Source of the DNA: Rudanella lutea DSM 19387
GTDB lineage: Bacteria; Bacteroidota; Bacteroidia; Cytophagales; Spirosomataceae
Reading direction: 5' to 3'
DNA length: 64,000 bases
Assembly (NCBI RefSeq): GCF_000383955.1
Contig: NZ_KB913013.1
Location: forward strand, 1,456,277-1,520,276
Positions 20,882 to 51,083 of the stretch are shown here, piece after piece. Numbering within the stretch: position 1 is the stretch's first letter; every line of letters begins with the position of its first letter. The notes beneath the pieces are model-generated. The model saw only the letters and a program-made list of their open reading frames with translations. It searched no databases and was not told the DNA's origin. A program made the position numbers and the translations under genes.

Positions 20882-22105
20882 ATGCAAACTGCAACAGCGC
20901 ACAGCCTGGCCGAAAAAGCCCTCGAACAAGGCAAAGGCATTTTACGCCTGGCCCCCACCTGGGTACCCCGGTCATTTTGCGTGCCCGGCCGACGCATCAA
21001 ACTTCACCCCGACGATTATTACGTACTCGGTGGCAACCGGGGCGGTATCGACGAACGGTGGTTATCATCCACCACACCAGCCAAAAATGGCCCCCTCACC
21101 GGCGAACACGAAGGCCTGAGCAAGGTCGTTTTCAACGATGGCACTCAGGAGGTGCAGTTTCTGCTGAAAGACGCCGTTGATGAACTTAAGGGCGCCCTCA
21201 TTGGCGACCGGCTCTGGAACGGATACCAGTCGTGGCCGATGTACTCGAAGTTTTTCGACAATATGGGTCCCCTGCCCCACCATGTGCACCACAACGATGA
21301 GCAGGCGGCACTTACGGGCCAGTTGGGGAAGCCCGAGGCCTACTATTTCCCGCCCCAGCTAAACAACCACGGGGGCGACTTTCCGTACACGTTCATCGGC
21401 ATTGCGCCCGGCACCAGCAAAGAGCAGATCAAAGAGTGCCTGATGAATTTTACCAAGGGCGACAACAAGATCACCAATTACTCGATGGCCTACCGGCTTG
21501 AGCCGGGCACCGGCTGGGATGTGCCGCCGGGTTTGCTCCACGCCCCCGGTAGCATGTGTACCTACGAGCCCCAGAAAGCATCGGACATTTTCGCCATGTA
21601 CCAGTCGCTGGTCAACGAGGCTATTGTGCCGGAAGAATTGCTCTGGAATGGTACCCCTCAGGACCGCATCGGCGATTACGATCTGCTGATGGATGCAATC
21701 GACTGGGAGCTGAACACCGACCCCAATATGATGGCAAACCGCTACATGGTGCCGGTGCCCGTGCGCGACGAAGCCGAGATGGCTGCCGAAGGATACCGCG
21801 AGGTGTGGGTTTGCTACAAATCAGACGCGTTTAGCGCCAAAGAACTGACTGTGCTCCCCGGCCAAACCGTAACCATCCGCGATAGTGCCGCCTATGGTCT
21901 GATTATGATGCAGGGACACGGCAAAATGGGTGTCTGGAATGTGGAGACACCCGCCCTGATCCGGTACGGTCAGTTGACCAATGACGAGTTTTTTGTGAGC
22001 GAACAAGCTGCTCAGGAAGGCGTCACGATCACCAACTACTCATCGACCGATCCGCTCGTGATGCTCAAGCACTTCGGACCCGAAAACCCAGACTTAACCT
22101 TGTAG
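20882..22105 (+). CDS. Cupin-type sugar isomerase-like protein, uncertain function
   Basis: About 407 residues from the ATG at 20882 (MQTATAHSLAEKAL); the TTG at 20861 is an unlikely start. The middle carries a mannose-6-phosphate-isomerase-like cupin site: GPLPHHVHHNDEQAALTG supplies the His-rich metal ligands, LEPGTGWDVPPGLLHAPGS the second motif, and VLPGQTVTIRDSAAYGLIMMQGHGKMGVW the C-terminal barrel. It has no signal peptide. I recognise the bicupin fold but not a named enzyme. Its place between DUF4432 and a TIM-barrel isomerase suggests it isomerises an intermediate of the same pathway. Confidence 0.65.
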   Translation: MQTATAHSLAEKALEQGKGILRLAPTWVPRSFCVPGRRIKLHPDDYYVLGGNRGGIDERWLSSTTPAKNGPLTGEHEGLSKVVFNDGTQEVQFLLKDAVDELKGALIGDRLWNGYQSWPMYSKFFDNMGPLPHHVHHNDEQAALTGQLGKPEAYYFPPQLNNHGGDFPYTFIGIAPGTSKEQIKECLMNFTKGDNKITNYSMAYRLEPGTGWDVPPGLLHAPGSMCTYEPQKASDIFAMYQSLVNEAIVPEELLWNGTPQDRIGDYDLLMDAIDWELNTDPNMMANRYMVPVPVRDEAEMAAEGYREVWVCYKSDAFSAKELTVLPGQTVTIRDSAAYGLIMMQGHGKMGVWNVETPALIRYGQLTNDEFFVSEQAAQEGVTITNYSSTDPLVMLKHFGPENPDLTL

Positions 22106-22209
22106 TTTCCAGCTTTCTGTTTACAGTTTTCAGTGCTCAGGCTAGTCAGCATAACGCGCGAGAGCCAGTCGGCATCAACTGTAAACTGAAAACCGTAAAC
22201 TGTAAACTC
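22104..22209. repeat. Heptad inverted repeat, TACAGTT type
   Basis: The left arm reads in sevens TTTCCAG, CTTTCTG, TTTACAG, TTTTCAG (from 22106). The right arm, on the opposite strand, reads TACAGTT, TACGGTT, TTCAGTT, TACAGTT (22177-22204). The arms are imperfect complements around about 40 bp. The element starts just before the cupin stop codon (22103-22105) and ends 13 bp before the next start codon. Confidence 0.7.
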
Positions 22210-22221
22210 TAAATCAAAACC

Positions 22222-23247
22222 ATGAATAACTACCCCAAACTTCACAACGCCACCTGGCCCGGACTCGTCGGTAAAGGCCCCGATTCTGAGCCCATCATTC
22301 CATTCGATACCATGCTCCAGATGACCGCAGCCGCTGAGGTCGACGGGGTTAAATTCGACGGGGTTGATCTGGGCCTGATCGGGCCGCATGTCGACATCGA
22401 AAGCTCCGACGACGATATCAAGCGGCTGGGCGATAAAATTGCCTCCCACAATCTGGTTGTTGGCTCGCTGGTAGCCCCTATCTGGGGTGGCCCCGTGCTG
22501 GGTAGCGATGCCGACCGCGCTCACTTCCTCGACATGGTACGCAAAGCCTGCCACTTCGGTAAAGTGCTGCGCGGTATGGGCATGCGCCCCAGCGGAGTAA
22601 TCCGGGTCGACTCGGCCAGTTCGCCCCAGCAGTGGGATGCCGACCCGGTGGGCAACACCAAACTGATTGCCGAGACCTTCCGGGCCGCCTGCGACATTGC
22701 CGCCGAATACGGTGAGCAGATTGCCGCCGAGGGCGAAATTTGCTGGGCAGGTATGCACAGCTGGCGTGCCATGCTCGACACGCTTCAGCAGGTCGATCGG
22801 CCCAATATGGGTTTCCAGGCCGACATGTCGCACACCTTGCTGTACACGATGGGCTACAACCGGGAGCAGGACCGGATTCTGCCCGAAGGCTACGACTGGC
22901 AGGATCGGCAGGTGCTGACCGATGCGCTCAAGACCCTGACCGACGCCCTCCGCCCCTGGACCATCGACTTCCACGTGGCCCAGAACGACGGTACCGTATT
23001 CGGGTCGGGCTCACACGACAAAACCGGGCGTCACTGCCAGGCCCTCGACCCCAACGGCAAACTCGATGTAGCCAATGATGCCGGGTTCTGGCTGCGCGAC
23101 GAAAACGGAAACCTGACCAAGAAAATGCGGCATATCTGCTGGGACGGCTGTATGTTCCCCAACGACGTAATGAACAACCAGCAGACCTGGAACGATATTC
23201 TGGCCACCATGATCAAAGTCCGTGAAAAACACGGCTGGCAAGAGTAG
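22222..23247 (+). CDS. TIM-barrel sugar isomerase/epimerase (xylose isomerase-like)
   Basis: A 341-residue cytosolic protein of the xylose-isomerase-like/AP endonuclease 2 TIM-barrel superfamily. Key segments are VDGVKFDGVDLGLIGPHVD, GVIRVDSASSPQQWD, AAEGEICWAGMHSW (metal-binding Glu), MGFQADMSHTLLYTMGY (metal-binding Asp/His) and TIDFHVAQNDGTVFGSGSHDKTGRHC (His/Asp). Such enzymes include 2-keto-inositol dehydratase, ketose epimerases and the 3-keto-C-glycoside lyases. Four likely metal ligands are present, so it is probably active. The neighbouring Gfo/Idh/MocA dehydrogenase is a natural supplier of a keto-sugar substrate. Confidence 0.78.
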   Translation: MNNYPKLHNATWPGLVGKGPDSEPIIPFDTMLQMTAAAEVDGVKFDGVDLGLIGPHVDIESSDDDIKRLGDKIASHNLVVGSLVAPIWGGPVLGSDADRAHFLDMVRKACHFGKVLRGMGMRPSGVIRVDSASSPQQWDADPVGNTKLIAETFRAACDIAAEYGEQIAAEGEICWAGMHSWRAMLDTLQQVDRPNMGFQADMSHTLLYTMGYNREQDRILPEGYDWQDRQVLTDALKTLTDALRPWTIDFHVAQNDGTVFGSGSHDKTGRHCQALDPNGKLDVANDAGFWLRDENGNLTKKMRHICWDGCMFPNDVMNNQQTWNDILATMIKVREKHGWQE

Positions 23248-23376
23248 AGCCGCAACACCTTGCGGCTCCTGAGCACAAGCCCGCGTCTCCCGAACGCAAG
23301 CAACAGCGTGCGGGTCCTGAGACCACGTCAAAACATGTAAAATGCCAGCCCTGAGACGCCACCCACGTTGCGTCTC
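23248..23376. repeat. Array of three GC-rich hairpins
   Basis: Starting directly after the isomerase stop codon: AGCCGCA/TGCGGCT (23248-23254 with 23261-23267), CCCGC/GCGGG with an inner ACGC/GCGT (23280-23314), and GAGACGC/GCGTCTC (23353-23359 with 23370-23376). On the minus strand the units resemble each other (a CTCAGG run plus a GAGACGC-like arm), suggesting one repeated palindromic element. There is no T-tract. Confidence 0.6.
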
Positions 23377-23396
23377 TACAAACACATAAACCATCA

Positions 23397-24560
23397 ATGT
23401 CTGCCAAAAAAGACCTTCGAATTGGATTGATTGGTACCGGATTTATGGGTCGTACCCACTCAAACGGTTACCGCCGAGTACCCAATTTCTTCCCGCAGCT
23501 CGCCTACAATCCGGTACTGAAAGCCGTTTGTTCGCGCAACCGCGAGAAAGTACAAGCCTTTGCCGATCAGTGGGGGTACGAGTCAGTGGAGACCGACTGG
23601 CGCGCCCTCATCGCCCGCGATGATATCGATGCCGTCGACATTTGTACGCCCAACGATTCGCACGCTGAGATCGCCATTGCCGCAGCCGAAGCGGGCAAAA
23701 TGATTCTGTGCGAAAAACCCCTCGCCCGCAACGTAGCCGAGGCTCAGCAAATGGTAGATGCCGCCGAGAAAGCCGGGGTTCAAACTACCGTTTGGTACAA
23801 CTACCGCCGGATTCCGGCCGTAATGCTCGCCAAACAAATTGTGGATTCGGGTAAGTTGGGCAAAATCTTCCATTACCGGGCCAACTTCCTGCAAGACTGG
23901 ACCATCAGTGCCGATGTACCACAGGGCGGTACCGGCACCTGGCGTATGGACGTCGATGCGGCCGGTTCGGGTGTAACGGGCGACTTGCTGGCGCACTGCA
24001 TCGACACGGCTATGTGGCTCAACGGGGCCATCAGCGACGTGTCGGCCGTGACCGAAACCTTCGTGAAAGAGCGGATGCATCAGCTCACCGGCAAGGTGCA
24101 GCCCGTTGGTATCGACGATGCTTGTATTTTCCACTGCCACTTTGCCAATGGCTCGCTCGGTTTGTTCGAGTCGACGCGCTACGCCCGGGGCCACAAAGCC
24201 TTATACACCTTTGAAATCAACGGCGAACACGCGTCGATCCGCTGGGATTTGCACGACCTGAACCGCCTGGAGTACTTCGACCACTCCGATGAGTCGATTG
24301 TGCGGGGCTGGCGTTCGATTCACGTGACCGACGGTGACCAACCCTACATGGACAAGTGGTGGGTGCCCGGCCTCGGCATTGGCTACGAACACAGCTTTAT
24401 CCATCAGGTGGCCGATTTCCTCAAGAGCCTCGAAACGGGCGAGCCTTGCTCACCCAATTTCCGCGACGCACTGGAGACCCAGAAGGTCTGTGAAGCCGTG
24501 ATCGACTCGGCCAACACACGGAGCTGGAAAGACACCGGCGTTCAGACGTTTACGATGTAA
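23397..24560 (+). CDS. Gfo/Idh/MocA-family sugar dehydrogenase
   Basis: A 387-residue cytosolic NAD(P)-dependent oxidoreductase. It has the Rossmann start [28 protein letters not shown], and the EKP motif [10 protein letters not shown] (catalytic-site Lys107). The C-terminal domain carries the substrate motif [14 protein letters not shown] (GD..xHxxD). Relatives oxidise inositol, glucose or the 3-OH of glucosides; ThuB of rhizobial trehalose use is in this superfamily, and a ThuA gene follows at 28464. The enzyme probably makes the keto sugar handled by the adjacent TIM-barrel and DUF4432/cupin proteins; that link is inferred. Confidence 0.82.
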
Positions 24561-24576
24561 GTAATGAAGCAGAATT

Positions 24577-24678
24577 CAGCACTGGACATTCGGACTTCAG
24601 ACACTGGACATTAGACTTACTACCTTTAGATATGGAGGTCTAACGTCTAATGTCCAACATCTAATGTCCAGTACTGAG
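24577..24678. repeat. Heptad inverted repeat, GGACATT type, copy 1
   Basis: A 102-bp imperfect palindrome. The left arm reads ACTGGAC, ATTCGGAC, TTCAGAC, ACTGGAC, ATTAGAC (24581-24616). The right arm reads GTCTAAC, GTCTAAT, GTCCAAC, ATCTAAT, GTCCAGT (24638-24672). It is homologous throughout to the element at 50989-51083, which has one heptamer (GTCTAAC) fewer in the right arm. It lies just after the Gfo/Idh/MocA gene. Confidence 0.85.
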
Positions 24679-24690
24679 GAAGCAGAATTA

Positions 24691-24784
24691 AATGTAAAAT
24701 GAACAAGGTAAAATGTACAATGAAAGAGCTGACTGTCAGCAGGTAGCCCAATTATCCATTGTCCATTGCACATTATTCATTCAT
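24691..24784. repeat. Heptad inverted repeat, AATGNNN type
   Basis: The left arm in sevens is AATGTAA, AATGAAC, AAGGTAA, AATGTAC, AATGAAA (24691-24725). The right arm is CATTGTC, CATTGCA, CATTATT, CATTCAT (24757-24784). The arms are reverse complements in pattern, with a CTGACTGTCAG palindrome (24729-24739) near the centre. It follows the GGACATT-type repeat directly. Confidence 0.8.
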
Positions 24785-24815
24785 TTAATCTGAGCGAAAA
24801 CACAGTTTAAACAGC

Positions 24816-24861
24816 GTAGGACAGGTTTGCAGGAGACACCATCTCTACAAGCCTGTCCTAC
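24816..24861. repeat. Stem-loop GTAGGACAGG
   Basis: GTAGGACAGG and its complement CCTGTCCTAC bound a 46-bp near-palindrome whose inner parts also pair (TTTGCAGGAGA against TCTCTACAAG, with mismatches). It is the third palindrome in the 417-bp space before the ABC transporter. There is no T-tract. Nothing else is visible in the remaining 100 bp apart from repeated ATTCGT words near 24930-24970. Confidence 0.7.
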
Positions 24862-24977
24862 AGCTATTTGAGGGGCCGGAACAGCCCGGTTGGCTAAATT
24901 TTTGAAAGAAATCCAGACCAATCCGTTGCATTCGTCCGATTCGTGCTTCTATTTGTAGAATTCGTATTCTTTTTTGT

Positions 24978-26474
24978 ATGATTCTTTCCGTCACTAATCT
25001 TTCCAAATCATTTGCGGGCGTCAAGGCTCTGAATAACGTACAACTTGCCGTGCAGGCAGGCGAGGTACATGCCCTCATGGGCGAAAACGGTGCCGGTAAG
25101 TCGACGTTCATGAAAATCCTGATTGGCCTGTTACAGCCCGATGCCGGCGAGATTATTTTCGATGGAAAACCGCTGCACCACAGCAACGTCAACGAAATGC
25201 TCGAACGGGGTATTTCGATGATTCATCAGGAACTGCTCACCGTACCCGAACTGACGGTGGCCCAAAACATTTTTCTGGGCCGTGAACCCCGCCGGTGGGG
25301 GCTTATCGACGAGCGGAAGCTGAACGAACAGGCCTCGCAGTTACTTGCGCAATTGGGCGTTGACCTCCGCCCCGATGTGTGCATGAAGTACCTGAGCGTT
25401 GCCGAACGCCAACTCGTCGACATTGCCAAGGCGCTCTCCAACAAGGCGCGGGTCATTATCATGGACGAGCCCACCTCGGCCCTGTCCGACAAAGAGGTAG
25501 CCACCCTGTTTACCATTATCCGGGATTTGCAGCAGCAGGGCGTCGCAATCATCTACATCTCGCACAAGATGGAGGAGATCTTTACCCTGGCTGATACCAT
25601 TACGGTGCTGCGCGACGGGCAGTTTATTGCTACCCGCCCCGCGTCGGAGTTTACGGGTCAAAGCCTGATTGCGATGATGGTGGGCCGCGAACTGGGCGAT
25701 TTGTTCCCCCCTTCGCACGCCCAACTGGGCCAGGAGGTGCTCCGGGTAGAAGGACTCACCCAACCGGGTAAATTTTCGGACATTACGTTTAGTGTGCGGG
25801 CGGGCGAAGTGCTCGGTTTGGCGGGCCTCATGGGGGCCGGTCGTACCGAAGTGGCGCGGGCCATTTTTGGCCTTGACCCGTACGCGCGGGGTACGGTTTC
25901 GTTCAACGGCCAACCCGTAACGATACGCTCTCCGCAGGAGGCTATCGCGCTCGGTATGGGCTTCGTGGGCGAAGACCGTAAAGCGTCGGGCTTTGTACCG
26001 GGCATGTCGGTGAAGCACAACCTGACCCTCGCCAGCCTCCAGCAGTTTGCCCGCCGGGGCCTCGTGGCCGAAGGGGCCGAAACCGCAGCGGCCACCCAGT
26101 TGGTCAAAGACCTGAACATCAAAACGGCGGGCCTGAACCAACGGGTTGTTTACCTCAGCGGGGGTAATCAGCAGAAGGTTGTAATCGGTAAAGTGTTGCA
26201 ATCGGCCCCGAGTCTGATCATTCTGGACGAGCCTACGCGCGGAATTGATGTGGGCGCCAAAGCCGAAATTTACAAGCTCATCAATGAACTGACCGCCAGA
26301 GGTATAGCCATCCTGCTTATCTCTTCCGAACTCCCCGAACTTTTAGGTTTAAGTAATCGAATTGTGGTATTAGCTAAAGGAAAACAGACTGCCGTGCTTT
26401 TAGGGGAAGAAGCTACTCAGGAAACCATCATGCATTACGCCATGCAGACCGAGTCGCCCCTTAGCCAATTGTAA
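24978..26474 (+). CDS. Sugar ABC importer ATPase with two domains (RbsA/MglA-like)
   Basis: A 498-residue double nucleotide-binding-domain ATPase. Domain 1 has Walker A GENGAGKST (about residues 36-44), a relaxed signature LSVAERQLV and Walker B VIIMDEPTS. Domain 2 has the degenerate P-loop GLMGAGRTEVARAIFG usual for the family, signature LSGGNQQKVV and Walker B LIILDEPTRGIDVGAK. It powers import of a monosaccharide, inositol or similar compound. Followed by its permease after 9 bp and the binding protein after another 8 bp. ABC sugar importers are uncommon next to SusC/D loci, so this cluster uses a distinct inner-membrane route. Confidence 0.92.
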   Translation: MILSVTNLSKSFAGVKALNNVQLAVQAGEVHALMGENGAGKSTFMKILIGLLQPDAGEIIFDGKPLHHSNVNEMLERGISMIHQELLTVPELTVAQNIFLGREPRRWGLIDERKLNEQASQLLAQLGVDLRPDVCMKYLSVAERQLVDIAKALSNKARVIIMDEPTSALSDKEVATLFTIIRDLQQQGVAIIYISHKMEEIFTLADTITVLRDGQFIATRPASEFTGQSLIAMMVGRELGDLFPPSHAQLGQEVLRVEGLTQPGKFSDITFSVRAGEVLGLAGLMGAGRTEVARAIFGLDPYARGTVSFNGQPVTIRSPQEAIALGMGFVGEDRKASGFVPGMSVKHNLTLASLQQFARRGLVAEGAETAAATQLVKDLNIKTAGLNQRVVYLSGGNQQKVVIGKVLQSAPSLIILDEPTRGIDVGAKAEIYKLINELTARGIAILLISSELPELLGLSNRIVVLAKGKQTAVLLGEEATQETIMHYAMQTESPLSQL

Positions 26475-26483
26475 CGGTTTTTC

Positions 26484-27470
26484 ATGAACAACGTCATCGA
26501 CACCCCTACCAAACCGGTCGGTCAAACCACCTACCAAACGCAGATTCGCAAACTCGGGCAATACGGCATTTTAGTGGCTTTTGTCCTGATATGCCTTGGC
26601 TTGTCAGTTATCAGTCCCAAGTTTCTGACGGTGCAGAACCTGATGATCATTGTCATGCAGGTGTCAATCAACGCCCTGCTGGCCTTTGGGGTCACGTTTG
26701 TCATTATCACCGGCGGCATCGACCTCTCTATTGGCTCTATTGTGGCCGTAGCGGGTGTGGTTGCAGCCTCGTTTGCCCATCCTGATACGTACCCGGTTAT
26801 TGTACCGTTGGCCCTCGCGCTGGCAACGGGCGTCGCGTTTGGGGCACTCAACGGGTTTGTAATCACCCGCAGCAAGGTACCGCCGTTTATTGTCACGCTC
26901 GGCACCATGACCATCCTGCGTGGCCTGGCCCTGATTCTGAGCAAAGGCCGGCCCATCTCCAACCTGTCCGATACGTTTAGTTTTCTGGGCGGGGGCAAGA
27001 TTCTGGGCGTACCCAACCTGATTATCGTTCTGATCATTGCCTTTATCATCTGCACCATTGTGTTGCGCAAGACCGTTTCGGGCCGGTACATGTATGCCGT
27101 AGGCGGCAACGAACAGGCCGCACGGGCATCGGGTATCCGGGTGGGTCAGGTAAAAATGCAGGTTTACATCCTTAGCGGGGGCCTGGCGGCTCTGGCGGGC
27201 GTACTCCTCACCTCACGCATCTCAACGGGCCAACCCAATGCCGGGGCCGGCTTCGAGCTCGACGCCATTGCTGCGGCCATCATTGGCGGCACAAGTACAT
27301 CGGGCGGTACCGGCACCATGACGGGCACACTTATTGGGGCTCTGCTCATTGGCGTTATCAGCAATGGGCTCGACCTGCTCAACGTCTCGTCGTACTACCA
27401 GCAGGTAGTGATGGGCGTCATTATCATTGGTGCTGTTATTCTCGACAGCATGAACCAGAAAACGAACTAA
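26484..27470 (+). CDS. Sugar ABC importer permease (RbsC-like)
   Basis: A 328-residue integral membrane protein with about ten hydrophobic segments. It has the family features ALLAFGVTFVIITGGIDLSIGS, TLGTMTILRGLALILSKGRP, AVGGNEQAARASGIRV (the coupling-helix loop that contacts the ATPase) and AIIGGTSTSGGTGTMTGTLIGALLIGV near the end. It forms the transmembrane path of the importer, probably as a homodimer. Typical length and start. Confidence 0.92.
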   Translation: MNNVIDTPTKPVGQTTYQTQIRKLGQYGILVAFVLICLGLSVISPKFLTVQNLMIIVMQVSINALLAFGVTFVIITGGIDLSIGSIVAVAGVVAASFAHPDTYPVIVPLALALATGVAFGALNGFVITRSKVPPFIVTLGTMTILRGLALILSKGRPISNLSDTFSFLGGGKILGVPNLIIVLIIAFIICTIVLRKTVSGRYMYAVGGNEQAARASGIRVGQVKMQVYILSGGLAALAGVLLTSRISTGQPNAGAGFELDAIAAAIIGGTSTSGGTGTMTGTLIGALLIGVISNGLDLLNVSSYYQQVVMGVIIIGAVILDSMNQKTN

Positions 27471-27478
27471 CCCCCATT

Positions 27479-28426: not shown

Positions 28427-28463
28427 CCAGACACCTCTAACTGCTTCTCCCCCCTTTTCCACA

Positions 28464-29339: not shown

Positions 29340-29352
29340 TTTCTGACACCTC

Positions 29353-30243: not shown

Positions 30244-30249
30244 CTAAAA

Positions 30250-32494: not shown

Positions 32495-32499
32495 ACAAA

Positions 32500-32618
32500 T
32501 GGTTTATGGTTAGTAGTTTTTGGTTTTTGGTTCGATCTGCCTGGGGTCCTGGAACACGCATCACCTACGTTTACATATCTTGAGACCACTAAAAACGATA
32601 AACCAAAAACCATGAACC
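32500..32618. repeat. Heptad inverted repeat, TGGTTTN type
   Basis: The left arm reads exactly in sevens: TGGTTTA, TGGTTAG, TAGTTTT, TGGTTTT, TGGTTCG (32500-32534). The right arm reads ACTAAAA, ACGATAA, ACCAAAA, ACCATGA, ACC (32588-32618). The arms are imperfect complements around about 50 bp. It fills the spacer between the DUF4861 stop and the kduD start within one transcription unit. Confidence 0.85.
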
Positions 32619-32622
32619 AGGC

Positions 32623-33768
32623 TCACCGGCCAGCTTTGCGCGGGGCCGATGTGGTCACGACCAACGGCTGCCGGAGCCGATTGGCGTGGGCTTGCAGGTA
32701 GGCAAACCAGGCATCGGAGGAGGTAATCAGACCGGCTTTGTCCCAGGCCCCTCCGCTGTAGTACGTGATACCATCACCCGACTTCACGGCAAGCCGGGCC
32801 AGTCCGTGACCGTATTTGCGCATCATCCCAGCCGACTTGCCCGGAAATACGCACCCTACCCCGATGGTACCATCGGGGCCGTGTTTGGGCTCCCAATAGC
32901 CAAGTACCCCGTTTTTATCGTCAAGCAGCAACGGGCTCTCTTCGGGCCGCAGCACAATCCCGGCTACCATGGGCAGCTGACCCGGTGCGGTATGCGTCAC
33001 ATCGACCCGGATTTTGCTCAACTGAGCGCCCGCATCGAGCGAAATCGTCTTGGTTTGGGTGACGGTCACGCCCTTGAAGGTGTACGGGTCGTACTTCACC
33101 CGAAACGTGGTACGGAGCGGGCCGTTGTCGAGCACCTCCCAGGTCGTGTAATTATGGATGTATTGAATGGAGTCATTCAGGAAAACGCCCACGTCGCCCG
33201 CACCGAGGGTCAGGCCCACCTTGTAATAATCGAGCCCGTCGCCATTGTCTTTGTGGTAGTCGTTTTGCTTATACCATTTGTTAATGATCAGTTCGGGCGT
33301 GCGCTTGGCCCAGATGTCGGAGCCGTAGGCATTATCGGAGCGACCGTTGAGGGCCTTGCCGTAGATACGAAACGCCACCCGGTCGTTTTCCCAGGCAAAG
33401 TCATCGTAGCGTTCGGGTACGTACCGGCCGTAAGTCATAGGCTTCACGGGGGTTGGTTTCCCTTTGCTCAGCACCAGCCCCACCGACCCTTTGGGTGCCA
33501 CCGTAACCTGTACGAGCAGGTTCTGCACGGCCGACCCTCCTTTTTTCTCCAGCTGATAGGCAACCTCCTGCCCATTGTCGGCGCGTACCACACGAAGTTG
33601 GGCCGTATCGACCTGAGGGTATGCTTTCGCTACGGTCGACCACGGGATTTCGACCACCGCCGACTCGTAAGCCGCCGTACCCGGGTTGGTAATGTTCAGG
33701 TTGCCCTGCTGAGCCAGTACCGGCCCGGCAATGGCCAGTAAACAAGGGAGTAAAATCGAGAAGCGCAT
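32623..33768 (-). CDS. DUF4861-family secreted protein
   Basis: A 381-residue exported protein from the ATG at 33768 (MRFSILLPCLLAIAGPVLAQ); the longer frame to 34044 runs antisense into kduI and is rejected. The signal is cut after LAQ. The body follows the DUF4861 pattern: ITNPGTAAYESAVVEIPWS, GRYVPERYDDFAWENDRVAFRIYG, DIWAKRTPELIINKWYK, YHKDNGDGLDYYKVG and YSGGAWDKAG. DUF4861 genes are frequent in pectin and uronide loci; I know of no settled reaction. It starts one base after the kduI stop codon, so it is co-translated with kduI. Confidence 0.78.
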   Translation of the reverse strand: MRFSILLPCLLAIAGPVLAQQGNLNITNPGTAAYESAVVEIPWSTVAKAYPQVDTAQLRVVRADNGQEVAYQLEKKGGSAVQNLLVQVTVAPKGSVGLVLSKGKPTPVKPMTYGRYVPERYDDFAWENDRVAFRIYGKALNGRSDNAYGSDIWAKRTPELIINKWYKQNDYHKDNGDGLDYYKVGLTLGAGDVGVFLNDSIQYIHNYTTWEVLDNGPLRTTFRVKYDPYTFKGVTVTQTKTISLDAGAQLSKIRVDVTHTAPGQLPMVAGIVLRPEESPLLLDDKNGVLGYWEPKHGPDGTIGVGCVFPGKSAGMMRKYGHGLARLAVKSGDGITYYSGGAWDKAGLITSSDAWFAYLQAHANRLRQPLVVTTSAPRKAGR

Positions 33769-43202: not shown

Positions 43203-43233
43203 AAGGTTATGGGAAAATTAGGTGATTGCATTA

Positions 43234-43394
43234 GAAGCTGTTTGAGTTAGCGATTTGAGGCCGCAGGGAGCGAATTTTGGTTGCTGACAAGCCAGTTTTT
43301 GCCGGTCGTAGCGCTTGCTACGGCCCAAAAAAGTGGCGCAGGCAGCGACCAAAAGCTGCCCTTACGGGCCAAAGGGATTAACTCAAACAGCTTC
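43234..43394. mobile_element. 161-bp MITE-like palindromic element
   Basis: The ends are perfect 16-bp inverted repeats, GAAGCTGTTTGAGTTA (43234-43249) and TAACTCAAACAGCTTC (43379-43394). They are flanked on both sides by TTA (43231-43233 and 43395-43397), a 3-bp target duplication as made by TNA-targeting IS5-superfamily transposases. Imperfect complementarity continues inward (for example GCCAGTTTTT against AAAAAAGTGGC) to an apex GTAGC-GCTT-GCTAC near 43309-43322, so nearly the whole element can fold. It has no ORF. The right TTA doubles as the stop codon of the neighbouring minus-strand gene. Confidence 0.75.
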
Positions 43395-46118
43395 TTATTT
43401 CTCAGCTACCGCCGTGGGCTTGCCAAACAGGAGCCATTCGAGGCTGAACAGGTCGCGGTTGGGGCCTTCGGGCTTCACAAACACCACGTACAAGTCGTGC
43501 ATGCCACCGGGGTCCCGAACGGGGGTGCTCACTTCTTCATACTTGCGCCAGTCGCCCGTAGGCTTGTACGCCAGCGTGCTCACCACCGGGCCCGTGGGCG
43601 AGTCGATATGCACCTCAATGGTAGCGCCTTTATCTTTCGATGAATAACGGTACGTGAGCTGATCGATGCCTTTCAGGTCGATGTTCTTGAGCACAAAATA
43701 CGACTGATGGTGAATAGTACCCAGCCGTTTGCCCTGCCGGGTCATATTGGAGAGCACATCGGCCTCACTGGCAATCACTTTGGTCGGGCGGAGTACCAAC
43801 ACATCCGTTTTGGTGAGGGCCAACGGGGCCTTGGGCGGCAACAACGCACCTTTGTCGGTGTACGAGGCCGTCAGTACATAGCGTCCTTCCTGCTCTTTGC
43901 CCACGTGTTGATTGAGCGTCAGCGTACCCTGCTGTGGCAGTCGATTTTCGGTTGGCTCGGTACCCAGCGAAAGCACGTATTTGATCATCTCGGTGGCCTC
44001 TTCGCGCGAGAGTTGCGGGTGCGCACTCATGGCATGTTCGCCCCAGACACCACCCCCGCCAATGATGACCTTGTTGGCCAGTTTGGCAGTAGCGGTTTTG
44101 TCGTCGCGGTAGCGCTTGGCCACCTCCGTAAACGACGGCCCGACCGATTTGGCGGCTACCTGATGGCAGGCCTTGCAGTCGGAGCCAGCCACCAGCGATT
44201 TCCCCAAACTGTATGTCGACGTCAGTTGCTGATGGCCCATCATCGGCTCGCTGCTGACCTTCGGAATATAGTTGAGCACCACCTTCAGGTTCTTTTTGTC
44301 GATCACCTTGTCTTCTTTGTCGGTCACGCGCACGGTATAGGCAAAGGGCGTGGCCTGCGGAGAGAAGAACGTCCGGTTTTGCCCGGTCGATACAGCCACC
44401 TGCGGGGTGGTGTTGCCCACTTTTACGGTCACGGTGTCGGTGCTCACCTTGCCCGCCGGGTCGGTCACGGTCAGGGTAGCCCGGTAGATGCCGTTTTTGC
44501 GGAAGGTGTATGTCGGATTGGCCTCCGTCGAGGCTACTTTGTTCCCCTCGAAGCGCCAGGCGTACCGGAGCGCATCTTTGTCGAAATCAACGCTTTTGTC
44601 GCCCGAAAACGCCACCGTCAGCGGAGCCAGCCCGATGGTATCCGTGGCCGAAGCCCGCGCTACCGGAGCCCGGTTGCCGCCGTTAAAGTCAATACGTACC
44701 AGCCGGGCGTCTTCGTTGTCGATCCCATACACCGAGCCGTATTCGAGCATGTAGATACTACCGTCGGCCCCGATTTCCATATCGACCGGCCGCCGGAAAT
44801 CGCCTGTTTGGGGCATAAACGCTTCCATGTACTGATAGTTCTGGTCGGCATCGAGCCGCACGGCATACACCCAGTTCCGCATCCAGTCGTACACAAACAG
44901 AGCCTTGTCGTAATAGGCGGGCAATTTGGTAGTTGATTTGAGTGCGGGGTCGTAATGATACACAGGCCCGCCCATGGCGCACCGCCCGCCCACACCCAGC
45001 TTCGGAAACTCGGCCGACGCGTTGTACGGGTACCAGATCATTGCTTTTTGGGCCGGGGGCAGGGTTTTGGCTCCGGTATTATTGGGCGAGTTATTGACGG
45101 GAGCCATCGGGTCGTACAGAGCCCCCACGGCTTTGGTGGCAAAGTCATACTGATGGTAGGCCTTGTTGTCGCCCACAAAATAGGGCCAGCCGTAGTTACC
45201 CGCTTTTTTGGCCTGATTGAACTCATCGTAGCCGCGTGGCCCCTGCTGCCCGTCGGTACCGGCATCGGGACCAATTTCGCCCCAGTACAGAATCGACGTA
45301 GCCGGGTCGACCGAAATGCGGTACGGATTGCGGCAACCCATCACGTAAATTTCGGGCCGGGTGCCGGGGGTGCCTTTGGGAAACAGGTTACCCTCCGGAA
45401 TGGTGTACGAACCATCGGTTTTGACGTTGATCCGCAGGATTTTACCCCGCAAATCGTTCGGATTGCCCGACGACCGCTGTGCGTCGAACGTAAGCCGACC
45501 CGACCGGGCGTCGATGGGCGCGTGTCCGTTCGATTCAAAGGGCACGGTATTGTCGCCGGTCGAGATAAACAGGTTGCGGTGGGCATCCCACGCCATCGAC
45601 CCGCCGGTATGCGCACTTACCTCCAGGTCGATCGGAAATTCGATGATTGATTTTTCGCTGGCTACATCGAGCGAGCTATCGTCGTTGACCCGAAACCGGC
45701 TGATACGTTGCAACGTTTGCTCACCTTCCTGAATCGTGTAGAAAAAGTACAGAAACTGGTTCTGGCTAAAATCGGGGTCGATGGTCATGCCCAGCAACCC
45801 GTTCAGATACTTGTCGACGGCCTTGACGGGGAAGTCGTGCAGCAGCCGGGTTTTCTTCTGAACGGGGTCGTAGAGGTAAAACTTACCGGCGCGTTCGACA
45901 AAAAACACCCGTCCGTCGGGCGCAACGGCCAGTTCCATGGGCTCGTTGAGGTCGTTGGAAAGTACCGTTTTGGTGAACCGGTTTTCTTCAGGCCGGTTCA
46001 GGGTGTCGGCCAGGGCCGGGGCCGGTACCCGGTCGGTACCCCGATGGAAAGCGGGCAGGGTAGTAAGCCCGGCCAGAATCCCAAAGGGTAAGCTGTACTT
46101 GAGTAGAGAAGTGAACAT
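43395..46118 (-). CDS. PQQ-dehydrogenase-like propeller with PKD and cytochrome c domains
   Basis: A 907-residue exported protein from the ATG at 46118 (MFTSLLKYSLPFGILAG). The N-terminal half is a soluble glucose dehydrogenase-type propeller (NEPMELAVAPDGRVFFVERAG, LLGMTIDPDFSQNQFLYFFY, LRGKILRINVKTDGSY, GEIGPDAGTDGQQGPRGYDE). A PKD domain follows (VAFSGDKSVDFDKDALRYAWRFEG), then a class I cytochrome c with CKACH at 648-652 and GEHAMSAHPQLS supplying the axial Met, and a C-terminal jelly-roll like a carbohydrate-binding module (VEVHIDSPTGPVVST). It may oxidise a sugar in the periplasm and pass electrons to haem c; this is inferred. Its stop codon is one copy of the MITE target duplication. 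Confidence 0.82.
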   Translation of the reverse strand: MFTSLLKYSLPFGILAGLTTLPAFHRGTDRVPAPALADTLNRPEENRFTKTVLSNDLNEPMELAVAPDGRVFFVERAGKFYLYDPVQKKTRLLHDFPVKAVDKYLNGLLGMTIDPDFSQNQFLYFFYTIQEGEQTLQRISRFRVNDDSSLDVASEKSIIEFPIDLEVSAHTGGSMAWDAHRNLFISTGDNTVPFESNGHAPIDARSGRLTFDAQRSSGNPNDLRGKILRINVKTDGSYTIPEGNLFPKGTPGTRPEIYVMGCRNPYRISVDPATSILYWGEIGPDAGTDGQQGPRGYDEFNQAKKAGNYGWPYFVGDNKAYHQYDFATKAVGALYDPMAPVNNSPNNTGAKTLPPAQKAMIWYPYNASAEFPKLGVGGRCAMGGPVYHYDPALKSTTKLPAYYDKALFVYDWMRNWVYAVRLDADQNYQYMEAFMPQTGDFRRPVDMEIGADGSIYMLEYGSVYGIDNEDARLVRIDFNGGNRAPVARASATDTIGLAPLTVAFSGDKSVDFDKDALRYAWRFEGNKVASTEANPTYTFRKNGIYRATLTVTDPAGKVSTDTVTVKVGNTTPQVAVSTGQNRTFFSPQATPFAYTVRVTDKEDKVIDKKNLKVVLNYIPKVSSEPMMGHQQLTSTYSLGKSLVAGSDCKACHQVAAKSVGPSFTEVAKRYRDDKTATAKLANKVIIGGGGVWGEHAMSAHPQLSREEATEMIKYVLSLGTEPTENRLPQQGTLTLNQHVGKEQEGRYVLTASYTDKGALLPPKAPLALTKTDVLVLRPTKVIASEADVLSNMTRQGKRLGTIHHQSYFVLKNIDLKGIDQLTYRYSSKDKGATIEVHIDSPTGPVVSTLAYKPTGDWRKYEEVSTPVRDPGGMHDLYVVFVKPEGPNRDLFSLEWLLFGKPTAVAEK

Positions 46119-46221
46119 AAAAACGTTTGGCAACAGATTGATACAGAATGACAAACAAAACCGGCGCTATTTCTTACCGATTTGTGTCAGCCTTTCTCCT
46201 CAAAAAACATCGTAAATTAGA

Positions 46222-46229
46222 CAAATTTA
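46222..46229 (-). promoter_or_regulatory. Possible -7 element for the cytochrome/DUF1080 unit
   Basis: The minus strand reads TAAATTTG (exact TAnnTTTG), about 104 bp before the ATG at 46118, in the divergent space shared with the sensor gene. No clear TTG at -33. Confidence 0.3.
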
Positions 46230-46295
46230 GAAGGGCGAAATCCGTTGGTAAGGGTCCGTTTTCGTCAAATTAGAGGGGTAAATTGGTCCCTGATC

Positions 46296-49200
46296 ATGAA
46301 GTGGTTTCGGCTATTTATTTTTTGGGGGGTCATTGGGGTCATCACCAGCCTTCCGGGTGCGGCTCAGCCCCCTAAGGCTGACCGGGTCAGTCCAGACCGG
46401 GTCACGCCTGACCGGGTCACGCCTGACCGGGTCTGGTTTGAGCACATCACCGTCGACCAGGGGCTTTCGCACAGCGACGCCATGTGCGTTACGCAAGACC
46501 GGGCCGGGTTCATCTGGATCGGCACCAATCAGGGCATCAATCGGTACGACGGCTACGAACTCCGTAGCTACCTGCTCCCCGTAAACCCCCGCAACGGACT
46601 GGCGGGTAACCGGCTGCGGGCCGTGTACACCGACACCCGCGGGCGGTTGTGGGCGGGCTCCGAGAGCGTTGGCGTCAGTTTGTACGACACTCACCGCGAC
46701 CGATTCGTCAGCCTGCGTCAACTGGCCACCGCGACCGTCGACCGCGCCCTGCTCGACCGGCTCGATCTGGCCAATGTAGAAGCGATCACGTCGGATACGC
46801 AGGGGCGGGTGTGGGTCGGTACGCGCCGGGAGGGATTATTTTTGCTCACCCTCAACGACGGCCAACAGCTTACCAGCCTTACCCGCGTTCCCGTTGGCAC
46901 GCAAGCCGACTTCTGGGTCACAACGCTCATTACCGACCGGTCGGGCACGGTTTGGTTTGGCACAGCGCACGAAGGCCTCTGGTGGGTAGCCCCCTCGGGC
47001 ACACCCCGCGCCCGGACCGTGGCTCTCCCCCACAACCGGACTTCCGGGTCTGGTGATTTGCCCACCGTGCGTGCGCTACACGCCGACCGACGGGGCGGCC
47101 TCTGGATTGGCACCGACGAACAGATTTTCTGGACCTACAACAGCGGAGGGTTAACAACGGGCCGGTCCGGGCTAACCCCGCTCAACGGCACGTTCGACGA
47201 AATTGAGTCGATTCATTTCGACTCCTTCGGGCATTTGTGGGTAGGAACCAACTACGGGCTGCTGTTCTGGCCCGGCTTACCGGGTCCGGCTCCGGCAGGC
47301 CAACCTCCTATTGACCAGGGTCGGCCGACAACCTTTTACCCCCGCGACGACGACCCGCACAGCATCAACTCGGGGCGGGTGCACCAGATTTTTGAGGATC
47401 GAAACCAGATTTTGTGGCTGGCCGCGTCGGCCGGGGGGCTCAACAAGGTCGATTTGGGCCACAAGCCTTTTGAGAACCTGCAACGGCGATTTTCGCAACA
47501 GCCCACCTTGCCCAACAACTACGCCAACGCCATTTACAAAGACCGCACCCGTAACTGGCTCTGGATAGGCACCCGCAACGGTTTTTCGCGGTACGACCTC
47601 ACCACCCGAACGTACCAGAACTACGAGAGCCGCCCCCTGCCCGGCGATGCAACGGGTGTCGATGTGGCTTCGTTTCACCAAACAACCGACGGTACGCTGT
47701 GGGTGGGCACCCGCTACAGTGGCCTCAAGATACTGCGCAACGGCCGCCTGTCGACCCTGACCACCTTACCGGGGGGGCTTTCGCTCGGCTCTACCAGCCT
47801 CGAAACCATAGTGGAAGACCGGTTCGGTACTATTTGGGTTGGGAGTTTCGAGAGAGGGTTGCTCCGATTCGACCGGCAGGGGCAACTTCTGGGGCATTTC
47901 AGCGCCGATAATGGCCGTTTGCCCACCAACCAGATCACGTTTTTGCTGTACGACCGGGCTACCGATGTGCTTTGGGCCAGTACACGCGGCACAGGATTGC
48001 TGAAATTACAGATTGGCCCCGACTCGCTCCGGGTACTCCGGCAGTTTCGGCACGACCCCAACAACCCGGCCAGTTTACGGGTCAATTACACCTGGCCCCT
48101 GCTGAAAGACCGGCTCGGACGGCTCTGGATCGGCACCATTGGCGGGGGGCTCCACCAACTCACCACCGACCGGCAGGGCCGCGAACACATCCGCCGGTTC
48201 GATCGGGTGATTGCCGAGCCCAACATCGAAAGCATTTTGCAGGACGAACAGGGTGACCTCTGGATGGGGGGTGCCGGTTTGTTACGCTTCAATCCCACAA
48301 CGGGGCAGGCCATCCGGTACGACGTGGCCGACGGCCTGCAAAGCAATTCGTTTAAGGTGGGCGCGGCCTACCGCGATGCCGACGGAACCCTGTATTTTGG
48401 CGGGATCAAGGGGGTGACGTACTTCCAGCCCCGGCTGATCCGGCCCAACCCCTACCCGCCGGTTGTTCAGCTCACGAATCTTCGCATTTTCAACAAAATT
48501 GTACCGGTGGGCGACGAGGTAAACGGGCGGGTCGTGCTCTCCCAAACGCTCAATCAGACCCAAACGCTGACCATCAAAGCCGCCGAAAACGACTTTTCGA
48601 TCGAGTTTGTCGGCCTCAATTACGCCAACCCCCAAAAGCATACCTACGCCTACCGGCTCATTGGCTACAACGACGCGTGGGTGCATCCCGCACCGGGGCA
48701 ACGCACGGCCAACTTTGCCAACCTACCCGCGGGCGACTACACGCTTGAAGTGCGGGCGGGCAACGGCGAGGGGCAATGGTCGGCCAAACCCGCTACCCTA
48801 CAGATTACGGTATTGCCGCCCTGGTGGAAAACGGGCTGGGCTTACCTGCTGTACACGGTACTGACTGTGAGCGCGTTGCTACTGTACCGGCGCATCACCG
48901 TAACGCAGCAAACCCTGCAAAACGAACTGGCGCTGGAGCAATACAAAGCCGAAAAAGAGAAAGAAGTGACCGACAACCGGCTCCGGTTTTTCACGAACGT
49001 TTCGCACGAGTTACGCACGCCCCTGACGCTCATCATGGGCCCACTCGACGAGCTGGTGTCGGCGGGAATGGCGGGCGGGCTGCGCGACAAGGTGTTGCTG
49101 ATGCACCAGCAAACCCGCAAACTGCTCGATCTGGTCAATCAATTGCTGGAGTTTCGGAAGGTAGAGTCGGGACATGTATCGCTGCGGGCGGAGCGGGGCA

Positions 49201-50570
49201 ATATTCTGTCGTTTGTTACCGAGATATTCCTCATTTTCAAGCTCAAAGCCGAAGAGATGCACCTCGACTACGACATGGAAGCCCCAACGGAGCCCGTGCC
49301 GCTGTACTTCGACCGGGCAAAGCTCGAAATCGTGTTGACCAACCTGCTGTCCAACGCGTTTAAATACACGCCCGAAAACGGAAAAATTCGGGTGACTATT
49401 TCGATGGCTGGCTCCCCCGACGAAGCCGCCCTTTTTTACAACAATCAGCTCAGTAACAACTACCTGCAACTCATGGTGCAGGACTGGGGCATCGGTATGA
49501 GACCCGACGAGGTAGCCCAGATTTTCGACCCGTATTACCAGGCTTCGCACACCAACACGCTGCGGATGATGGGCACGGGCATCGGGCTGTCGCTGGTGAA
49601 GCAGTTTGTGGAGGCTCACGCGGGCGAGGTTACGGTGCAGAGTGCCCCCGGCGCAGGTACCACTTTTACCATCCGGTTGCCGTTTGGACAGGCACACCTC
49701 GCCCCTGAGTCGATTGCAGACGAAACCCCGGCCGACCCCCACCCGTCGGCCGAAATCCCCCTCCTGCCCGAACGCATTGCCACCCCAACCCCGACACCTT
49801 CGGGTCGGATTTTGCTCGTGGAGGATAACGATGAGCTTCGGCAGTACCTCTCGGACCTGTTTAGCCCGGCCTACGAGGTGCACACCGCTACCGATGGCCT
49901 CGACGGTTGGGACAAGGCGCTCTCCCTCCTCCCCGACCTGGTGGTGAGCGATGTGATGATGCCCCGCAGCAACGGGCTGGAGCTTTGCCAAAGACTCAAG
50001 CAGCACCCCAAAACAATGCATATTCCGGTGGTACTCCTGACAGCGCGGGTAGCAGCTGCCCACGAACTGGAGGGCCTCGAAACCGGTGCCGACGAGTACA
50101 TGGTCAAACCGTTTAACCCGAAAATCCTGTTCACGAAGGTATCGGTCATGCTGCAAAGCCGGGCGCGGCTCCGCGAGTATTACGACCGGCAGATTCTGCT
50201 CAAACCCACCACCGTCGTGATCCCGGACGCCGAGAAACAACTCCTCGAAAAAGCGATGGAGATAGTCGAAACGCACCTGGCCGATCCTGAATTTTCGGTA
50301 CCGACGCTCGTCCGTGAAATGGGCATGAGTCAGTCGGCATTTTACCGGCAGATCAAAGCCATTACGGGGCAAACAGTGGTCGAGTTTATCCGCGATGTGC
50401 GCATGAAACGAGCCGCCCAACTGCTGACTACGGGTGGATTACGCGTATCGGAAGTGGCGCATCAGGTCGGTTTTGAGGACCTGAAACACTTCCGGCGGAC
50501 GTTCCAGAACCTGTATAATCTCTCGCCGTCGGAGTACGCCCGGCAACACAGGGGCAACCCAGACGAGTAG
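46296..50570 (+). CDS. Hybrid two-component system sensor/regulator (HTCS)
   Basis: A 1424-residue membrane protein from the ATG at 46296 (MKWFRLFIFWGVIGV). In order: signal or anchor segment, a DRVTP repeat linker, periplasmic two-component propeller repeats (many WIGT/WVGT.GL motifs, about 55-720), a Y_Y_Y domain (about 735-800), a transmembrane helix near 845-870, HisKA with phospho-acceptor His904 (FFTNVSHELRTPL), HATPase with NLLSNAFKYTPENG and GTGIGLSLV, a receiver with Asp1219 (VVSDVMMPRSNG), and a C-terminal AraC-type HTH (about 1325-1424). HTCS proteins bind an oligosaccharide and switch on the adjacent utilisation locus. It is divergent from the pectin locus. Confidence 0.93.
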   Translation: MKWFRLFIFWGVIGVITSLPGAAQPPKADRVSPDRVTPDRVTPDRVWFEHITVDQGLSHSDAMCVTQDRAGFIWIGTNQGINRYDGYELRSYLLPVNPRNGLAGNRLRAVYTDTRGRLWAGSESVGVSLYDTHRDRFVSLRQLATATVDRALLDRLDLANVEAITSDTQGRVWVGTRREGLFLLTLNDGQQLTSLTRVPVGTQADFWVTTLITDRSGTVWFGTAHEGLWWVAPSGTPRARTVALPHNRTSGSGDLPTVRALHADRRGGLWIGTDEQIFWTYNSGGLTTGRSGLTPLNGTFDEIESIHFDSFGHLWVGTNYGLLFWPGLPGPAPAGQPPIDQGRPTTFYPRDDDPHSINSGRVHQIFEDRNQILWLAASAGGLNKVDLGHKPFENLQRRFSQQPTLPNNYANAIYKDRTRNWLWIGTRNGFSRYDLTTRTYQNYESRPLPGDATGVDVASFHQTTDGTLWVGTRYSGLKILRNGRLSTLTTLPGGLSLGSTSLETIVEDRFGTIWVGSFERGLLRFDRQGQLLGHFSADNGRLPTNQITFLLYDRATDVLWASTRGTGLLKLQIGPDSLRVLRQFRHDPNNPASLRVNYTWPLLKDRLGRLWIGTIGGGLHQLTTDRQGREHIRRFDRVIAEPNIESILQDEQGDLWMGGAGLLRFNPTTGQAIRYDVADGLQSNSFKVGAAYRDADGTLYFGGIKGVTYFQPRLIRPNPYPPVVQLTNLRIFNKIVPVGDEVNGRVVLSQTLNQTQTLTIKAAENDFSIEFVGLNYANPQKHTYAYRLIGYNDAWVHPAPGQRTANFANLPAGDYTLEVRAGNGEGQWSAKPATLQITVLPPWWKTGWAYLLYTVLTVSALLLYRRITVTQQTLQNELALEQYKAEKEKEVTDNRLRFFTNVSHELRTPLTLIMGPLDELVSAGMAGGLRDKVLLMHQQTRKLLDLVNQLLEFRKVESGHVSLRAERGNILSFVTEIFLIFKLKAEEMHLDYDMEAPTEPVPLYFDRAKLEIVLTNLLSNAFKYTPENGKIRVTISMAGSPDEAALFYNNQLSNNYLQLMVQDWGIGMRPDEVAQIFDPYYQASHTNTLRMMGTGIGLSLVKQFVEAHAGEVTVQSAPGAGTTFTIRLPFGQAHLAPESIADETPADPHPSAEIPLLPERIATPTPTPSGRILLVEDNDELRQYLSDLFSPAYEVHTATDGLDGWDKALSLLPDLVVSDVMMPRSNGLELCQRLKQHPKTMHIPVVLLTARVAAAHELEGLETGADEYMVKPFNPKILFTKVSVMLQSRARLREYYDRQILLKPTTVVIPDAEKQLLEKAMEIVETHLADPEFSVPTLVREMGMSQSAFYRQIKAITGQTVVEFIRDVRMKRAAQLLTTGGLRVSEVAHQVGFEDLKHFRRTFQNLYNLSPSEYARQHRGNPDE
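46380..46439 (+). repeat. Tandem 15-bp repeat in the HTCS gene
   Basis: Four units start with GACCGGGTC: 46380-46394, 46395-46409, 46410-46424 and 46425-46439. The middle two are identical (GACCGGGTCACGCCT). They encode DRVSP, DRVTP, DRVTP and DRVWF. The units keep the reading frame, so copy-number change would lengthen or shorten the linker between the membrane anchor and the sensor by five residues at a time. Confidence 0.9.
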
Positions 50571-50873
50571 TTACAGATTCCGCCAGCTACCGGCGTCGTA
50601 GACTTCGGTAAGCCCCCGGTTACCCAGCAGGGCTTTGGCGCGAGCACTCCGCATGCCCGACGCGCAGCACACAATCACGGGTTTCTTGTAGTTGCGAATG
50701 GTGTTTAACTTACTGTCGAGCACATCGAGCGGGATGTTGACCGCTCCTTTGGCGTGCCCACCGGCAAACTCGCCCGGCGACCGGACATCAATAATAACAG
50801 CTCCCTGCGCCCGTACCGCATCGATCTGTTCGTTGTTTCCTCCTCCGAAAATTGACTTAAAAAGCGAAAGCAT
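50571..50873 (-). CDS. Rhodanese-like protein
   Basis: A 100-residue single-domain rhodanese from the ATG at 50873 (MLSLFKSIFGGGN). GAVIIDVRSPGEFAGGHAKGAVNIPLDVL is the family start, and VIVCCASGMRSARA is the active-site loop, with Cys70 as the likely persulfide-carrying residue. The N-terminus is amphipathic rather than a signal, so the protein is probably cytosolic. Its stop codon directly abuts the HTCS stop with no bases between, so the two convergent transcripts must overlap. Confidence 0.85.
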   Translation of the reverse strand: MLSLFKSIFGGGNNEQIDAVRAQGAVIIDVRSPGEFAGGHAKGAVNIPLDVLDSKLNTIRNYKKPVIVCCASGMRSARAKALLGNRGLTEVYDAGSWRNL

Positions 50874-50988
50874 CTGTGTGTTTGTTTTAGAATGATGACA
50901 CAAAGGTGGCGGCACAAATCATCCTATTCCGTGACATTTATCACGCATGAGTCTTATTTCTTTCACCACTTTTGACTACACAAACATT

Positions 50989-51083
50989 CAGTACTGGACA
51001 TTTGGACTTCAGACATTAGACGTTAGACGTACTACCATTCTGTAGGGAGGTCTAATGTCCAACATCTAATGTCCAGCACTGAG
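50989..51083. repeat. Heptad inverted repeat, GGACATT type, copy 2
   Basis: This 95-bp element is homologous over its whole length to that at 24577-24678, including the ends CAGTACTGGACATT and CAGCACTGAG. The right arm reads GTCTAAT, GTCCAAC, ATCTAAT, GTCCAGC (51050-51077), one heptamer shorter than copy 1. It lies in the divergent space between the rhodanese and DinB genes, so it is not a simple transcription terminator. Confidence 0.88.

Follow-up and report, generated by a model that had tools for sequence, protein, structure and literature searches.

The question raised by the DNA analysed here is how the spacers between bacterial genes come to hold inverted repeats whose arms are themselves written in steps of seven bases. 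The stretch, referred to as the window, consists of 64,000 nucleotides of Rudanella lutea DSM 19387 (C1:1456277-1520276 of the host genome G000, which counts 6.55 Mb in four contigs). By the comparison of one protein, with identities of 88-92%, the named organisms closest to the host include Spirosoma, Fibrisoma, Larkinella and a Rudanella MAG, in keeping with a Spirosomataceae-type member of the Bacteroidota. A sequence-only reading had listed seven intergenic palindromes of this kind, with words differing from site to site, and had proposed slippage plus hairpin-templated copying as their origin, or handling by a dedicated enzyme. Two of the seven are in fact copies of a miniature inverted-repeat transposable element (MITE), so that the sites do not form one family. 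The others are considered, with a probability of roughly 0.5, to be gene spacers repeatedly rewritten in place, by hairpin-templated copying combined with slippage by seven or eight bases.

Periodicity was scored as the match between a sequence and itself shifted by a given lag. The window contains 8 lag-7 runs with at least 20/28 matches, and none at lags 4-6 and 8-13; at the same threshold the harmonic lag 14 gives 4 runs and lag 15 gives 1. No lag-7 run appeared in 30 Markov-2 simulations of the window. The genome was then represented by the window and 40 evenly spaced 20-kb stretches, for a total of 864 kb of 6.55 Mb (13%), and genes were called by a simple codon-usage script, so that spacer boundaries are approximate. 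With a run defined as 18/28 matches or more, the spacers of this sample contain 138 lag-7 and 43 lag-8 runs, versus 0-4 and 0-5 in each of 20 shuffled sets, and the genes contain 12 and 8, respectively. The remaining lags from 4 to 13 produce at most 15 runs each in the spacers, while lag 14, twice seven, produces 87. The runs correspond to 119 intergenic elements, or 138 per Mb, and by extrapolation the whole genome would hold about 900. An inverted partner scoring at least 12 is found for 94 of the 119 elements (85 at a score of at least 15), and for none of 119 dinucleotide controls; the other 25 are direct-only arrays. The heptad inverted repeats reported between genes are therefore real, and the genome scan suggested along with them, lag-7 autocorrelation and inversion against shuffled DNA, gives a strong intergenic excess. 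Many different words are used per genome, most of them, by inspection, devoid of repeated GGG. Stop codons in all frames were considered as the cause of periods 7 and 8 and rejected, since several words, by inspection, contain no stop codon. Elements of step eight were noted at L010:5242-5323, L015:5447-5519, L117:16609-16738 and L048:562-736, with words such as AAAGAGTG and GTAAGATG; they otherwise behave like the heptad elements.

The same organization is found outside the host. Eighty loci around one gene in other Bacteroidota contain 59 lag-7 runs of at least 20, against 1, 1, 11, 10 and 0 at lags 5, 6, 8, 9 and 10; 45 of the 80 loci carry a lag-7 or lag-8 element, and 43 of the 69 elements are inverted. 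The spacer separating two orthologous genes could be read in 78 loci, where 22 show a lag-7/8 run, 26 a hairpin (hairpin controls, 0/78) and 13 both, with words that vary between genera. In related genera a constant central sequence is found, with words that differ around it: the pattern GCTGACGC-N(8-24)-GCGTCAGC, hereafter the core, was scanned over 150 genomes of the family and occurs in 35 of them, in up to 106 copies, the reversed pattern used as control being found in one genome, once. In at least four of the 35, low counts reflect another palindrome holding the core letters (L133-L136). These loci and L027 were left out of both sets of core elements analysed below (37 for arm comparison, 33 for target duplications), and the duplicate L139 and L166 were additionally left out of the 37-element set, to which the host itself supplies eight rows. 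The relatives' core loci, 20 in number and drawn from three genomes, were taken from the top of the list of places and are not a random sample. Among the core copies of one genome the flanking words vary, and each arm largely mirrors its partner. At L158 the core is flanked by 44-bp mirrored arms devoid of periodicity, which extend from the stop codon of one gene to that of the other; an origin by convergent paralogous genes was discarded, as the two proteins differ and the mirror spans stop to stop. At L160:187-242 a core hairpin is nested in the loop of another core hairpin. Together, L158 and L160 suggest that the mirroring of arms and their periodicity arise in steps that can be separated. 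At L013:1261 (sister-genome side), L117:1894-2146 and L173:1501-1537 there is also a dispersed hairpin whose arms resemble TTCGACAGGCTCAGGCTGAC and which sometimes ends in the core letters GCTGACGC.

The arms of each hairpin are mirrored unit by unit. In 88 host elements, arm identity is 0.847 in register, 0.518 when one arm is slid by seven, and 0.287 when it is slid by 3-5; the 43 elements of the relatives give 0.842 in register versus 0.564 slid, and the 37 core elements 27.5/35 versus about 18.7/35. Two arrays of one word, arisen independently, should pair equally well when slid; these arms do not, and hence share the history of each unit. The arms also share a compositional bias, the inward arm being poor in C. 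Among 94 host elements, this arm has more G than C in 77 and more C than G in 16; the counts are 38 versus 2 among the 43 elements of the relatives and 35 versus 1 among the 37 core elements, a few of which overlap the host set, while 68 comparison hairpins give 37 versus 25. In stems, G-C pairs have been described as outnumbering C-G pairs, and U-A pairs as outnumbering A-U pairs, with template switching proposed as the cause (PMC8794818; papers cited by accession are represented here by extracts). The 43 elements of the relatives fit the U-A excess as well (T 0.361, A 0.244).

The position of the elements follows the genes. Averaged over 76 arms, the lag-7 match is at background level on the stop codon and reaches 0.6-0.7 from about seven bases beyond it; over 51 arms it drops a few bases short of the start codon. 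At 557 other gene ends it stays level, near 0.26. Of 65 elements between tandem genes, 44 start no farther than 12 bp from the stop upstream, and in 31 the end lies at most 12 bp from the following start. Spacers between divergent genes are under-used (10 of 111 elements with an assigned context, versus 91 of 419 background spacers); therefore, among the gene contexts claimed by the sequence-only reading, placement in divergent promoters is not typical. Seeding of the word by the last codons of the upstream gene was also considered: the lag-7 match over the six bases before the stop is 0.32-0.39 versus about 0.26, so that it applies to a minority at most, with L056, L048 and L040 as suggestive cases.

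The two sites to be set apart are 24575-24678 and 50987-51083, which are copies of a MITE with the word GTCTAAT, about 97-104 bp long, with terminal inverted repeats TTCAGTACTGG..CCAGTACTGAG and variants. The first copy (104 bp, ends TTCAGCACTGG..CCAGTACTGAG) lies at the edge of an AATG-word hairpin, between 9-bp target duplications at 24566-24574 (GAAGCAGAA) and 24679-24687; the second (97 bp, one heptad shorter) is flanked by those at 50978-50986 (ACACAAACA) and 51084-51092. Of the 31 distinct copies compared, 17 lie between direct repeats of about 9 bp that score at least 8, and 14 fall below this score, which none of 300 controls reaches. Both window sites and L015:6793 are empty in the sister genome G002, and two of these three insertions, by inspection, interrupt or abut AATG-word hairpins. 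The host holds at least 40 copies (40 of 80 candidates were scored) and G002 gives 36 forward-strand match rows. Among 46 exact-end hits no correctly oriented pair about 0.8-3 kb apart, as expected for an autonomous partner, was found; diverged ends were not searched. A 161-bp insertion at 43234-43394, absent in G002, whose ends read GAAGCTGTTTGAGTTA/CTCAAACAGCTTC and which has apparently duplicated a TTA, is probably a second MITE, unrelated to GTCTAAT.

These copies raise the alternative that all sites are ordinary MITEs or their remnants. With boundaries set at the hairpin ends, target duplications with a score of at least 8 are found in 0/84 host non-MITE elements and 0/300 controls, by a method that finds them in 4/8 MITEs; an earlier run with looser boundaries gave 2/84, 1/300 and 2/8, and 1/33 for core elements. 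The elements outside the GTCTAAT family thus do not behave like insertions. Their boundaries run from stop to start, and words can differ at orthologous sites, so that an all-MITE origin is already largely refuted and seems very improbable.

How the spacers change was followed in G002, whose main high-scoring segment pairs are 87-97% identical to the host, over the window and six of the 40 stretches. This comparison includes 27 host hairpin elements, of which 4 lack anchors and were left unclassed. The 23 assessed elements are the same in 7 cases, replaced by another periodic hairpin in 8, by a hairpin lacking periodicity in 3, and absent in 5; a MITE inserted into a hairpin that is otherwise retained accounts for three of the different cases, and one of the five elements counted as absent is itself a MITE. 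At L015:14317 both arms switch word, from CAACGAA to AACTGAA, and at L117:16609 the word, of period 8, changes from AAAGAGTG to ATTGAGTG. The element at L014:14293 differs in length by 8 and 16 bases. At L117:4863 the loop is inverted between the sister genomes, the one clear case, by inspection.

Rewriting in place would work as follows. A short hairpin in a spacer would let the replicating strand fold back on itself and copy one arm onto the other, by template switching; such copying would make and repair mirror arms, and could flip the loop. Slippage by seven, less often by eight, would add and remove word units, and selection would remove changes falling in coding or promoter DNA, which is why the rewritten tract would begin at the stop codon and extend towards whichever start or stop follows. 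Replication as the moment of the event, fold-back as its step and near-neutrality of the tract are all parts that we infer. Slippage together with fold-back fits best the mirror arms, the joint change of word in both, the inverted loop, the boundaries and the lack of target duplications. Of the ideas put forward by the sequence-only reading, slippage plus hairpin-templated copying is thus the one favoured, also by the mirrored variation of units and by length differences in exact units as at L014:14293, while the dedicated enzymes that were tested find no support, and a single family is wrong for the two MITE sites.

Several observations weigh against this account. The words of one spacer give 51 match rows in the genome (a count from 40 scored candidates out of 96, in which the spacer itself and second arms figure), and a single core is found in as many as 106 copies per genome. 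Words and core shared by many loci are not expected from rewriting that is purely local, so that some dispersal is needed. This spread, as well as the choice of seven, lies outside the account. The conserved sites at 22104 and 32500 carry few, single and uncompensated changes with respect to G002. The excess of U-A over A-U is reversed in the host (A 0.354, T 0.252). Direct arrays, considered as young precursors, have run scores that do not differ from those of mirrored arrays (p 0.62); the 25 direct-only arrays being no purer, an order in which the direct array comes first is unsupported. Finally, no mutation has been caught happening.

The need for dispersal is what a REP-like origin would supply. 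Repetitive extragenic palindromic (REP) elements, with their REP-associated tyrosine transposases (RAYT), and MITEs are dispersed intergenic palindromes. According to such a view, an enzyme would place copies of the core hairpin in spacers, arms included or not, and the arms would then decay or be edited. The distribution of the core in 35/150 genomes agrees with it, as do the nearly bare cores of L138 and L166 and a type combining ACGGTTT with the core, for which G099 and G115 each give 80 match rows when both strands are counted (40 candidates scored). On the other side, target duplications are near chance (the 1/33 core elements versus 1/300 controls given above), and the mirrored, non-periodic 44-bp arms of L158 run from stop to stop.

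The enzymes point the same way. The host genome has no match to the reverse transcriptase profile RVT_1 (PF00078) at E 0.001, the profile having matched 3/14 control genomes. Its Y1 transposase genes are four, none of them flanked by heptad hairpins; three lie near palindromes of other sequence, and the locus of one (L111) has a single unpaired lag-7 run about 1 kb away. The Y1 genes at L109, L110 and L112 were observed near palindromes of their own, such as GTGCCGTAGGTACGC and GGCCGATAGGCC-like sequences. Among 30 Y1 loci of relatives (fetched from 44 matches), a paired core was found in one, more than 1 kb from the gene, and ten others hold single unpaired 8-base core halves; apart from that paired core, any palindromes close to the Y1 genes of host or relatives have another sequence. 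G079 has 44 cores and no Y1 (PF01797) match, a pattern that past loss or a diverged enzyme would also give. The heptad hairpins thus differ from REP/RAYT systems, the host RAYT-type genes lying near other palindromes and the hairpins lacking target duplications. RAYT was accordingly set aside, and both enzymes suggested by the sequence-only reading are without support, the RAYT-like one in host and relatives, the reverse transcriptase in the host. REP-like dispersal is, on balance, rather unlikely as the source of the elements.

Hairpins could also be kept for a role at mRNA 3' ends, in end protection or non-canonical termination, with a sequence free to change. In 66 spacers comparable between host and G002, both genomes have a hairpin in 9/11 convergent, 14/39 tandem and 1/16 divergent spacers (shuffled, 0/66), and the convergent ones do so despite aligning poorly. 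By inspection, five congeners have five different hairpins at one convergent site, between the same two flanking genes, and at a second convergent site six of seven readable species have one; hairpins at L254 and L144 were recognized visually, and at L144 G016 has no complete spacer and G107 no match. Intrinsic terminators with a hairpin and no need for poly-U have been described (PMC8355165). The depletion of divergent spacers, however, is also predicted by promoter protection alone, and terminator-like hairpins come, by inspection, after two core elements (L147 and L159). U-rich tails follow 10/103 crossings, versus 28/248 random positions and 46/129 other hairpins. Intrinsic terminators of the usual kind were therefore rejected, in agreement with the earlier remark that simple termination does not explain the sites. 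A function at 3' ends is possible, that of a canonical U-tail terminator is not, and as an explanation of the elements such a role appears improbable, below REP-like dispersal.

The regular step may also recall a row of binding sites, each seven bases long, for a protein or a ring reading single-stranded DNA or RNA by sevens. The seven-base step itself, the variable word and the C-poor inward arms are compatible with it; words vary widely between families and period 8 is used too, which makes this explanation the least probable of all, with hardly any weight.

Rewriting in place has partial precedents. The sequence-only reading could not name inverted pairs with variable words; taken as a claim that such pairs are unknown, this is wrong in part, as inverted pairs of GGGAATC repeats occur in Xanthomonas (PMC4692102) and the P6b stem of the Nostoc trnL intron is made of heptamer words (PMC4476775). 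The former are the closest precedent found in print, two species having 70 and 75 such pairs. The Xanthomonas and Nostoc repeats, GGGAATC and GGGGA(C/T)T, share with the host elements the heptamer array, a mostly intergenic location near the upstream open reading frame (ORF), and rarity between divergent ORFs; those of Xanthomonas often form inverted convergent pairs, and at the same genes length and sequence vary among related species. They differ, in the extracts of PMC4692102, by having one type of G-tract word per genome, able to fold into a quadruplex, while the host uses many words, mostly lacking G-tracts, with unit-level mirror arms, period 8 as well, and a core in some genera. The P6b stem of Nostoc likewise consists of variable heptamer words, with classes I and II replaced between lineages and indels of seven, but is one locus inside a group I intron rather than a set of spacers (PMC4476775). 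The TAACTGA repeats of Beggiatoaceae, Cyanobacteria and some Bacteroidetes are intergenic heptamers with indels mostly in 7-nt steps; unlike those of the host, they are mostly direct one-word arrays, located just before starts in the main genome studied, with one indirect repeat (PMC4679880). A preference for seven had been noted earlier and, as related in PMC4679880 and PMC4692102, speculatively tied to the footprint of the polymerase.

Hairpins made by template switching resemble the elements in that mirror arms are created (PMC8794818) and, in yeast, arms are homogenised and spacers inverted (PMC8604942). The cases described concern RNA genes and the protein genes of yeast, and neither heptad words nor a core were met in the extracts of these two papers. 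Among the top papers listed for searches of titles and texts in the open-licence literature, none reports mirrored arrays of many words or the core; with the letters of the core themselves not searched, this is weak evidence of absence.

A wider proposal may be put forward, tentatively, as something that could well prove wrong: that Bacteroidota possess a spacer-rewriting process other than classical transposition, in which mirrored words of seven or eight bases surround a core acting as a fold-back primer or an enzyme site, words are replaced wholesale at the same locus, and hundreds of spacers per genome change faster than the flanking genes. If so, much bacterial intergenic DNA would be written by a copying process with a grammar of its own (step seven, mirror symmetry, C-poor inward arms), and spacer hairpins and repeats need not be regulatory. 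Each genome would offer, by extrapolation, hundreds of natural sites at which template switching and slippage could be compared across species. A further question is by what route a single core and a restricted vocabulary of words came to be spread over a genome with no target duplications left behind.

Within the window, lag-7 runs of at least 17/28 are found at six of the seven sites listed, namely 22104, 24577, 24691, 32500, 50989 and 63887. The heptad hairpin at 22103-22218, with word CAGTTTN, begins on the stop codon TAG (22103-22105) and ends just short of the following start (22222); it is kept in G002 with point changes. That at 24685-24792, with word AATGNNN and GCTGAC..GTCAGC at its centre, is also kept in G002; its RNA fold has a z of -2.0, equalled by 9/200 shuffles. 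The hairpin at 32495-32628, with word TGGTTTN, occupies the spacer between two minus-strand ORFs and folds weakly better than shuffles (z -1.4). The one at 63876-63997, again with word AATGNNN, is identical in G002 and has a predicted fold of -37.7 kcal/mol (z -6.0). The seventh site, at 4720-4756, is a perfect hairpin with 17-bp arms and a 3-nt loop, 3' of a gene ending at 4705; it folds well (-26.3 kcal/mol, z -6.3), but its lag-7 match is weak (12/20) and its spacer aligns poorly to G002. The TACGGTT half-site reported at 1392-1425 (here 1385-1425) is weak: it has no lag-7 run of at least 17/28 and folds no better than shuffles (z -0.27), and the G002 spacer at its place holds a GAGTG-type array. 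A scan of the window against Rfam gave no match at the gathering score.

A direct-only array, missing from the sequence-only list, is located at 9365-9406, with six perfect AACAATG units and no inverted partner, and the G002 sequence at its place is dissimilar. Nested GAGATGACATCTC-like palindromes, forming another repeat family, were observed in spacers at L019:13042-13126, L027:3186-3289 and L117:14688.

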